Source: Bacteroidia bacterium (GTDB lineage Bacteria; Bacteroidota; Bacteroidia; Flavobacteriales; Flavobacteriaceae). Taken from it: a stretch of DNA of 64,000 nt. Each line of letters opens with the position of its first letter. Position 1 is the stretch's first letter. The position numbers and the translations under genes are program-made. Under the pieces are notes generated by a model, which did no database searches, was not told the DNA's origin, and saw only the letters and a program-made list of their open reading frames with translations. Of this stretch, positions 35,920 to 50,260 are shown piece after piece. Where the stretch lies: assembly GCA_030431695.1 (NCBI GenBank), contig JAUIIU010000009.1, positions 1-64,000 on the forward strand, read 5' to 3'.

Positions 35920-38601
35920 CTAGTGTGCTAAATTTGGTTGCAGCCACTTCATGGCTTTTTCTACGGAAATCCCCTTGCGTTCCGCGTAATCGATCACCTG
36001 ATCTTCCCTGATCTTTCCCACGCCGAAATATTTGGCCTCGGGATTACCAAAATAATAACCCGAAACAGATGCAGCCGGCCACATGGCAAGGCTTTCGGTA
36101 AGGGATACTCCAATTGCTTCTTCAACGTTCAGGATCTCCCAGATGGTTTCCTTCTCCAAATGATCCGGACAGGCCGGATAACCCGGTGCCGGACGGATCC
36201 CAAGATAGGATTCGCTTATAAGTTCTTCATTGGAAAGATGCTCATCATTAGCATATCCCCAATATTCTGTTCGCACCTTTTCGTGCAGGTATTCCGCAAA
36301 TGCCTCTGCCAGCCTGTCGGCCAGCGCCTTAAGCATGATACTACTGTAATCATCATGTTCAGCGCGGAATATTTCGGTCATTTCCTGTTCCCCAAAACCG
36401 GCTGAAACACAAAAGCAGCCTATATGATCCCGGAATCCGCCTGATTTAGGTGCGACGAAATCGGCCAATGCCAGGTTCGGTCTTCCTGCTGCCTTACGGG
36501 ATTGCTGCCGCAGGGTCCTGAAATAGTTTTTATTTCCTTCGGAACCAACCAAAACCTCGATATCATCCTCATTGACGGAATTTGCCTCGAATAACCCAAA
36601 AACCGCTCTCGCTTTCAATGTCCCGTTCGAAACGATCTCCGAAAGCATAGAACGTGCATCGGTGTATAGTTCTGTGGCATGTTTTCCAACAACCGCATCT
36701 TCCAGTATGCCGGGGAATTTGCCGTGAAGATCCCAGCTTCTGAAGAATGGGGTCCAGTCGATATAGTCCAGTAAATCTTCCAGCGACTGGTCTTCGATCA
36801 GGTGAATTCCGGGTTTGGCCGGTGACGGGGTATCCGCCGTCCATTTTAGTTGCAGTTTGTTCTTCCTGGCCTCCTCCAGGCTGAGGAATTCCTTTTTTTG
36901 CTGACGATCGAGGAATCGCTGCCGGAAATCCTTGTAGTCTTTCTTCAGGTCTGCTTTGAAGTCCAGTTTTTTGTCCTTCTGGAGCAAATCGCCTACTACC
37001 GTCACAGCCCTCGAGGCATCGTTTACATGAACCACGGCGCTCTTGTATTCGGGGTCGATCTTCACCGCGGTATGCGCCTTACTTGTAGTGGCCCCGCCTA
37101 TCAGTAACGGAACCTCGAATTGCTGACGCTGCATTTCCTTCGCCAGGAAGACCATTTCATCCAGGGAAGGAGTGATCAAACCACTCAACCCGATGATATC
37201 CACCTGTTCTTCCTTTGCTGCGGCTATGATACGTTCCGGGGGAACCATCACACCCAGATCCACGATCTCGTAGTTGTTGCATGCCAGAACCACCGAAACG
37301 ATATTCTTCCCGATATCGTGTACGTCGCCTTTGACTGTAGCCATAAGTATCTTGCCGTTAGATCGCACCGTATCGTCCTTATCAGCTTCAATGAAGGGCA
37401 GCAGGTAAGCCACGGCTTTCTTCATCACCCTGGCCGATTTCACCACCTGGGGTAGGAACATTTTTCCACTTCCGAAGAGATCACCCACTACATTCATTCC
37501 ATTCATCAAATGCCCTTCGATAACCGCTATCGGTTTGTCCACGACCAGCCTGGCTTCCTCCACATCCTGGGTAATAAAGCTATCGATCCCTTTCACCAGG
37601 GCCCGGGTGATCCGGTCCTGAAGTGGTTCGTTCCGCCAGGACAGATCGGCCGTCTTCTCCCTGCGTTCTCCCTTAACCGATTCCGCAAAATCAAGCAGCC
37701 GTTCCGTGGCATCCGGTCGACGGTCCAGGATCACATCCTCCACATGTTCGAGTAGATCCCCGGGGATGTCGTCGTACACTTCCAGCATAGCCGGGTTCAC
37801 GATCCCTATATTCATCCCGGCCTGTATGGCGTGGTATAGGAAAACGGAGTGCATGGCTTCGCGAACAATATCATTTCCCCTGAAGCTAAAGGATACATTG
37901 CTCACCCCGCCGCTTACACTGCAATGCGGTAAATGTGTACGGACCCATCGGGTTCCTTCTATAAAATCTACAGCATTCCGACGGTGTTCTTCCATCCCGG
38001 TAGCGACCGGGAAGATATTCAGGTCGAAGATGATATCCTCCGGCGGGAATTTGACCTTTTCAGTCAGTATATCGTAGGACCTTTTGGCTATCTCAATCCT
38101 GCGTTCCAGGTTATCGGCCTGTCCAACTTCGTCGAAGGCCATCACAATCACAGCCGCCCCATACCTTCGGATCAGATTGGCCTGGCGCAGGAATTCTTCT
38201 TCACCTTCCTTCAGACTGATTGAATTCACCACACATTTTCCCTGGACAACCTGCAGTCCGGCTTCAATGATCTCCCACTTCGAGCTGTCGATCATTATAG
38301 GAACCCGGGCAATATCGGGCTCGGCAACGATGAGATTCAGGAATTTCACCATAGCCTGTTTTCCGTCGATAAGACCATCATCCATGTTCACATCGATGAT
38401 CTGTGCTCCTCCTTCCACCTGGTGTCTCGCAATATCCAGTGCCTCTTCAAATCTTTCTTCCTTGATCAACCTGAGGAACTTTCGGGATCCGGCCACATTG
38501 GTTCGTTCACCTACATTGATGAAATTACTCTCCGGGGTGATCACCAGTGGTTCCAGCCCGGACAATTTAAGGGGTCGTGTATTTCCTATCGTTTGGCTCA
38601 T
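35920..38601 (-). CDS. metH: methionine synthase, folate/B12/AdoMet-activation domains (split MetH, C-terminal subunit)
   Basis: [26 protein letters not shown]12 motif; C-terminal activation domain [12 protein letters not shown]. Confidence 0.94.
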
Positions 38602-43382: not shown

Positions 43383-43411
43383 TTTCAGTAAAAGTTTGAA
43401 CTTTATGGCTA

Positions 43412-48873: not shown

Positions 48874-48881
48874 TACATTTG
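48874..48881 (+). promoter_or_regulatory. metK promoter -7 box TACATTTG
   Basis: Exact TAnnTTTG match immediately upstream of the riboswitch. Confidence 0.65.
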
Positions 48882-48891
48882 TGCGCTCGAA

Positions 48892-48938
48892 GAGGAAAGA
48901 TTTGACTGATTGCAACCTCGCTAAAAAATGCTAAAGGC
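48892..48938 (+). ncRNA. SAM-II-like (SAM-II/SAM-V family) riboswitch upstream of metK
   Basis: GAGG-AAAGATTTGACTGATTGCAA-CCTC-GCTAAAAAATGCTAAAGGC: P1 GAGG/CCTC, GATTTnACTGATTGCAA loop and GCTAAA 3' segment characteristic of the SAM-II fold. Confidence 0.85.
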
Positions 48939-49003
48939 AGTGTAAACTTCCTTCCACAGGTTCGTCAAATCTTCCCCAGAGAATTTAAACATTAAATAGA
49001 CCT

Positions 49004-50260
49004 ATGCCGTATTTATTTACTTCGGAAAGTGTCTCGGAAGGACACCCGGACAAAGTCGCAGACCAGATCAGTGATGCGCTTATCGACAATTTCCTGGCTT
49101 TCGACCCGCAGTCGAAAGTTGCCTGTGAAACATTGGTTACCACCGGGCAGGTGGTCCTCGCCGGTGAAGTGAAGTCGAATATCTACCTGGACGTACAGAA
49201 AATAGCCCGAGACGTAATCAACCGAATCGGTTATACCAAGGGTGAGTACCAGTTCGACGGTAGTTCCTGTGGCGTGCTTTCGGCCATTCATGAACAGTCC
49301 GAAGATATCAACCGGGGTGTCGACCGCGCCACCAAGGAAGAACAAGGCGCCGGCGACCAGGGCATGATGTTCGGATATGCAACCAGGGAAACAGACGACT
49401 ATATGCCGTTGGCACTGGATCTTTCGCACAAGATACTCAAGGAACTTGCAGACCTCCGCAGGGAGCATGACGAGATCACCTATCTGCGCCCCGATTCCAA
49501 GGCACAAGTGACCATAGAATACAACGACGACAACAAACCTATTCGAATCGATTCTATAGTAGTTTCTACGCAGCACGACGATTTCGACCCGGATGAAGCC
49601 CGAATGCTGGAAAAGATCAAGAGCGATATCATTGGCATATTGATCCCGAGGGTGAAATCGCAGCTAAAATCCGAGATACAGGCGCTGTTCAACGATAATA
49701 TAAAGTATCACATCAACCCTACTGGTAAGTTCGTAATTGGTGGTCCGCATGGTGACACAGGGCTGACCGGCAGAAAGATCATCGTAGACACCTACGGTGG
49801 TAAAGGAGCACATGGTGGTGGGGCCTTCAGTGGGAAGGATCCCAGCAAGGTAGATCGATCGGCGGCTTATGCCACCCGGCATATTGCCAAGAATATGGTG
49901 GCAGCAGGTATTTGCGATGAGATACTGGTACAGGTTTCCTACGCCATCGGGGTAGTTGAACCAATGGGGATCTTTGTGGATACCTACGGTACTTCAAAAG
50001 TGAATATGACCGACGGCCAGATCGCCGCCAAGATCACCGAGATCTTTGATATGCGTCCTTCGGCAATTGAGGAGCGACTCAAACTGCGACAGCCGATGTA
50101 TTCGGAAACTGCAGCTTATGGACATATGGGGAGGAAGAACGAGATCGTTCATAAAACCTTCAAAACCCCCGACAATACTGAGACTACCCTTGCGGTTGAA
50201 TTATTCACCTGGGAGAAACTGGATTATGTGGACAAGGTGAAGGCGGCTTTTGGGGTGTAG
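49004..50260 (+). CDS. metK: S-adenosylmethionine synthetase
   Basis: [42 protein letters not shown]. Confidence 0.97.

Follow-up and report, generated by a model that had tools for sequence, protein, structure and literature searches.

An RNA named SAM-II long loops (Rfam RF01726) was listed in 2010 as a Bacteroidetes RNA with the entries cis-regulatory and switch (Weinberg et al. 2010, PMC2864571). The metK leader described here, from the window (the whole 64-kb stretch of marine flavobacterial DNA that was analysed), belongs to this family by score and agrees with it in aptamer sequence and structure, in the association with metK, and in its Bacteroidetes host, but the Rfam model ends at the aptamer, and the anti-aptamer arm and a second hairpin (H2) of the window fall outside the model. 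Published accounts of classical SAM-II and SAM-V riboswitches describe terminators and regulation at the ribosome site (PMC2258182, PMC6061858). The classical SAM-II family (RF00521), known from alpha-proteobacteria and from metX, metA, and metZ, shares with the window leader the P1 stem plus pseudoknot and the GATTTGA, TTGCA, and GCUAAA core; it differs in having intrinsic terminators or hiding of the Shine-Dalgarno site in or beside the aptamer, neither of which was found in the window. SAM-V has a related pseudoknot fold and has also been reported from marine Bacteroidetes (PMC6061858). It differs from the window leader, which has no SAM-V match, in hiding a Shine-Dalgarno site beside the aptamer.

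In strand-competition riboswitches, SAM-I (S-box) among them, one of the aptamer strands is contested by a strand further downstream, and two mutually exclusive folds result. The window leader is proposed to work alike, by strand competition, but the S-box ends in an intrinsic terminator whereas the window leader has none, and the aptamers are different. Rho-dependent riboswitches also exist, an example being the FMN riboswitch of E. coli ribB; this kind of control would account for an off state that involves neither a terminator nor blocking of the start site, but the composition of the window leader is not unusual, though a rho gene is present. In the searchable literature, mostly the main texts of openly available papers, we found no description of an anti-aptamer strand for RF01726. 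The aptamer family is known, and its expression platform is apparently undescribed.

An Rfam scan of the whole window gave two matches above the cut-off, one to RF01726 and one to SAM-I. The RF01726 match scored 61.1 bits (cut-off 44) over positions 1–60 of the 60-position model, and it lies 60 nt upstream of a gene of SAM and methionine metabolism, metK, identified at the equivalog level with its ATG at 49004. A permissive scan of the leader ruled out membership in RF00521 (SAM-II), for which the score was 15.2 bits and the cut-off is 36, and in SAM-V, with no match even at E-values of up to 10. The original prediction had been of a SAM-II-like aptamer, with a covariance-model match to a SAM class set as a check beforehand: the RF01726 score upholds the SAM-II type and supplies that match, whereas neither of the two families named for the search, RF00521 and SAM-V, is the right one. 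All of the sequences and coordinates quoted in that prediction agree with the window. The RF01726 aptamer before metK presumably binds SAM. The features of the leader are as follows.

48874–48881, + strand: TACATTTG, a Bacteroidota sigma-A −7 box (TAnnTTTG), recognized by sequence and recurring in relatives.
48886–48944, + strand: SAM-II long-loop aptamer (RF01726), matched by the full model.
48892–48919, + strand: aptamer stem P1, GAGG (48892–48895) with CCTC (48916–48919), from the Rfam alignment.
48894–48906, + strand: 5′ strand of helix H1, GGAAAGATTTGAC, overlapping P1 and P2.
48905–48941, + strand: putative aptamer pseudoknot P2, ACTG (48905–48908) with CAGT (48938–48941), assigned by analogy with the SAM-II/SAM-V topology.
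48934–48953, + strand: predicted alternative hairpin H2, AAGG-c-AGT/ACT-t-CCTT, from the MFE fold and not part of the original prediction.
48964–48975, + strand: 3′ strand of helix H1, the anti-aptamer arm GTCAAATCTTCC.
48976–49003, + strand: A/T-rich metK start region, with no Shine-Dalgarno site and with about equal predicted pairing in both folds.
49004–50260, + strand: metK, methionine adenosyltransferase, 418 aa (TIGR01034, 508.9 bits, cut-off 309.4, equivalog).

Of 98 genomes sampled from the genus, family, and order to which the window belongs, 86 have RF01726; among 397 genomes sampled phylum-wide, 64 have it, mostly of the same order. The comparisons that follow use 84 SAM-II-long-loop leaders collected from this order. 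The putative P2 strands are CTG with CAG in 77 of the 84 and CTA with TAG in two others (L052 and L060). A promoter box is similarly widespread: the Flavobacterium psychrophilum consensus is TAnnTTTG at −12 to −5 (PMC9723704), and in 77 of the 84 leaders (expected, 2) this motif lies no more than 32 nt upstream of P1, which places the aptamer at or adjoining the 5′ end of the mRNA, as had been claimed from the window alone. Transcription is expected to start a few nucleotides 3′ of TACATTTG, adjoining the aptamer.

Two further features of the aptamer were also observed. Its A-rich linker AAAAAAUGCUAAA (48928–48945) contains an AUG, as do the A-rich linkers of 71 of the 84 aptamers, and in the window this AUG opens a five-codon ORF (MLKAV). 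A conserved upstream ORF beginning at this AUG was considered and rejected, because the AUG is common but the ORF lengths range from 3 to 62 codons; the AUG-bearing linker could be a site for ribosome landing. Many relatives (L017, L049, L072, L086, and others) have an extra hairpin between P1 and the A-rich linker, which fits the name ‘long loops’, and the anti-aptamer arm is usually retained in these relatives.

The central claim of the original prediction was a long-range helix between the aptamer and a strand shortly before metK. In the window, the arm GTCAAATCTTCC, whose exact sequence is present only once in the 64 kb, pairs with GGAAAGATTTGAC through 12 Watson–Crick pairs with one bulged A, and when the 60-nt stretch that precedes metK was base-shuffled 3000 times, 12 such pairs were reached twice. 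By duplex energy, H1 in the window alone is only moderately unusual (z of −1.7); the weight for H1 comes from the relatives. These leaders are related and not independent, and all of the conservation statistics for H1 are to be read with this in mind. MFE folds have the 5′ half of the aptamer paired to the downstream arm in 80 of the 84 leaders and keep P1 in four; leaders that do not fold by H1-type pairing include L010, L024, L039, and L053. Pairing of the aptamer 5′ half with the leader had a mean z of about −2 relative to dinucleotide shuffles (81–84 leaders), and the z of the whole-leader fold was −2.46. When equal lengths were compared, the aptamer 5′ half paired with its own leader at a mean of −17.1 kcal/mol, compared to −10.2 for DNA upstream and −11.2 for the coding sequence of metK, and the own downstream leader was the best of the three regions in 75 of 83 cases. 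In many relatives, a GACG..CGTC close to the arm was considered as a separate hairpin and rejected, as the MFE folds put the CGTC in an extended anti-aptamer arm.

The partners of H1 were also swapped among leaders, a test that runs without an alignment. The own partners gave −17.1 kcal/mol compared to −15.0 ± 0.23 for swapped partners, a difference of 2.1 kcal/mol or 9 SD, and none of 2000 permutations fell below −15.8 kcal/mol. This test is the least affected by kinship, because an exchange of arms among close relatives only dilutes the signal. Covariation was scored in 30 distinct rows in the register of the window: columns 12–15 are A–U in 27 rows and G–C in 3, with zero exceptions, and columns 5–22 are A–U in 16 and G–C in 6. 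Two-sided changes in H1 were found in ten cells compared to 3.6 in shuffles, none of 500 shuffles being as high. An unconstrained RNAalifold run on 23 aligned leaders picked H1 and not P1.

The arm itself reads GTCARATC in 43 of 47 distinct leaders (named genomes, fixed aptamer core), and the remaining four differ by a base (GCCAAATC, TTCAAATC, ATCAAATC, or CTCAGATC). In other clades, the sequence of the arm differs yet is complementary, either in a register shifted towards TGATTGCA or by matching altered cores; in L092, from outside the order, the altered core is paired, GAGTAG with CTACTC. The leader thus has the defining element of a strand-competition platform, a strand downstream of the aptamer that is conserved, covaries, and is complementary to one of the aptamer strands. 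The H1 anti-aptamer helix is real and is kept with matching changes across the order. Conservation, the swap test, covariation, and the unconstrained consensus all bear out the helix originally proposed, and covariation of its arms, a check set beforehand, took the form of A–U to G–C changes on both sides.

The second hairpin, H2, takes up the triplex strand of the aptamer and the CAGT of the pseudoknot, and it sits nested inside H1; therefore, a single ligand-free fold is predicted to dismantle both halves of the pocket. H2-like hairpins are present in 57 of the 84 leader MFE folds, and some relatives have perfect GCUAAAG..CUUUAGC stems. The swap signal of H2 was about 3 SD and its mean z was −0.89, and H2 was absent from the RNAalifold consensus of the 23 aligned leaders. 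H2 is less well supported than H1 and varies among leaders.

We consider it probable that the SAM-II long-loop riboswitch governs metK through two folds of this short leader that exclude each other. In the proposed sequence of events, the aptamer would leave RNA polymerase first, and plentiful SAM would bind and lock P1, the P2 pseudoknot, and the triplex strand. When SAM is scarce, the arm at 48964–48975, emerging about 31 nt later, would pull the aptamer 5′ half away into H1, and the 3′ strand of the aptamer would form H2, with loss of the pocket. All of these structures are nearest-neighbour energy predictions in which the pseudoknot and the ligand are left out. When the growing transcript of the window was folded in this way, the aptamer hairpins were favoured at lengths of up to about 80 nt, and the anti-aptamer fold at lengths of about 90 nt and more, which fits with a decision during transcription in which SAM has to be bound by the time the arm appears. 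The choice of fold would then be made during transcription. As for the sign of the switch, the SAM-bound state would be off for metK and the anti-aptamer fold on; this sign, off at high SAM, is assumed from the feedback logic of metK and from the described SAM-II and SAM-V switches.

Two other readings of these folds were weighed. The complementarity of H1 might simply follow from the pyrimidine-rich composition of the leader or from shared ancestry and have no regulatory role. The arm is indeed pyrimidine-rich, and by duplex energy the window taken by itself does not stand out, with 17 of 200 dinucleotide shuffles giving a duplex as strong. However, neither composition nor descent sits well with the 9-SD excess of own over swapped partners, the two-sided changes, the pairing kept in shifted registers and with altered cores, outside the order too, or the control regions that pair 6–7 kcal/mol worse, and we regard this explanation as very improbable. 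Alternatively, the same two folds might act with the reversed sign, such that SAM binding releases the leader and turns metK on. It would be strange for a SAM synthetase to be under positive feedback, and the described SAM-II and SAM-V switches are off-switches; this reversal is improbable, even though the SAM-bound fold leaves more of the leader unpaired, which generally favours initiation in this group.

The step by which an off-switch of this kind would lower metK expression was considered next to three negative results. No intrinsic terminator was predicted on the + strand between 48700 and 49200, where the sequence after the arm is A-rich and not a T-run, and so the original remark that there is no obvious terminator stands. 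Sequestration of the start site was not seen in 78 leaders, in which the mean pairing at −20 to +20, calculated from energies only, is about equal in both states; the freed arm is hardly more complementary to the start region than expected by chance (mean z of −0.28). Conserved downstream structure was not found in the SAM-bound state (z of −0.11). Flavobacterium johnsoniae has no Shine-Dalgarno sites, and its initiation is set by local structure and upstream adenines (PMC6847099). Because initiation in Bacteroidota does not use Shine-Dalgarno pairing, the textbook outputs of small pseudoknot riboswitches are inapplicable as they stand.

With neither a terminator nor a change at the start site predicted, what is left is Rho-dependent termination, RNA decay, or an unusual effect on ribosome landing. 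The SAM-bound state might leave the −60 to −20 stretch single-stranded, with the transcript then being lost by Rho-dependent termination or decay. This stretch is more open in the predicted pairing when the aptamer is closed, and a rho gene is present; the composition of the leader does not single out Rho, as the 16 C and 6 G in 60 nt are reached by about 10% of stretches of the window. We put transcript loss forward as the leading, though tentative, suggestion. The output may instead be translational, the two folds presenting a ribosome landing or standby site differently, for example the A-rich linker AAAAAAUGCUAAA, such that SAM lowers metK initiation at an unchanged RNA level. The dependence of initiation on local structure and upstream adenines in F. 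johnsoniae (PMC6847099) and the frequency of the A-rich AUG linker would agree with this, as would the action of SAM-II on translation of Sinorhizobium meliloti metA at a distance (PMC9373788), but the predicted −20 to +20 pairing hardly differs between the two states, closing of the aptamer makes the −60 to −20 stretch more open and not less, the freed arm matches the start region only near chance, and the ORFs that begin at the linker AUG vary in length. A translational output seems rather unlikely.

A broader interpretation, which we hold with somewhat less than even confidence, is that the Flavobacteriales metK leaders may represent an order-wide, previously undescribed platform, in which an anti-aptamer strand competes for the whole SAM-II pocket with no intrinsic terminator and no sequestration of a Shine-Dalgarno or start site, acting through Rho, RNA decay, or Shine-Dalgarno-independent ribosome landing. 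A covarying anti-aptamer strand before metK is a concrete, mutable handle on riboswitch action in Bacteroidota, and it offers a candidate expression platform for a family so far mainly known as an aptamer.

Other SAM elements were observed in the window and in relatives. A second SAM-II long-loop element precedes a gene other than metK in three cases, L005 and L039 (both in genome G010) and L040 (G059); the gene after L005 is sulfhydrylase-like, and the arm is absent from L039, moderate in L040, and strong in L005. The SAM-I match of the window, at 43383–43276 on the − strand (82.1 bits), precedes a cluster of a cystathionine-synthase-type PLP gene, homoserine dehydrogenase, and metH, and it is 5.5 kb from the SAM-II long loops before metK. 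A survey in 2007 knew of no species with both SAM riboswitch classes (PMC2258182). SAM-I was present in 43 of 58 sampled relatives, and all 43 have SAM-II long loops too. Several relatives have a SAM-II long-loop leader and a SAM-I leader facing away from each other in a single divergent intergenic region, at some sites less than 100 bp apart, as at 100719–100777 (−) and 100844–100942 (+) in G061:C2 and at 37067–37126 (−) and 37352–37457 (+) in G003:C4; such divergent pairs are also present in G011, G015, G033, G072, G075, and G080.
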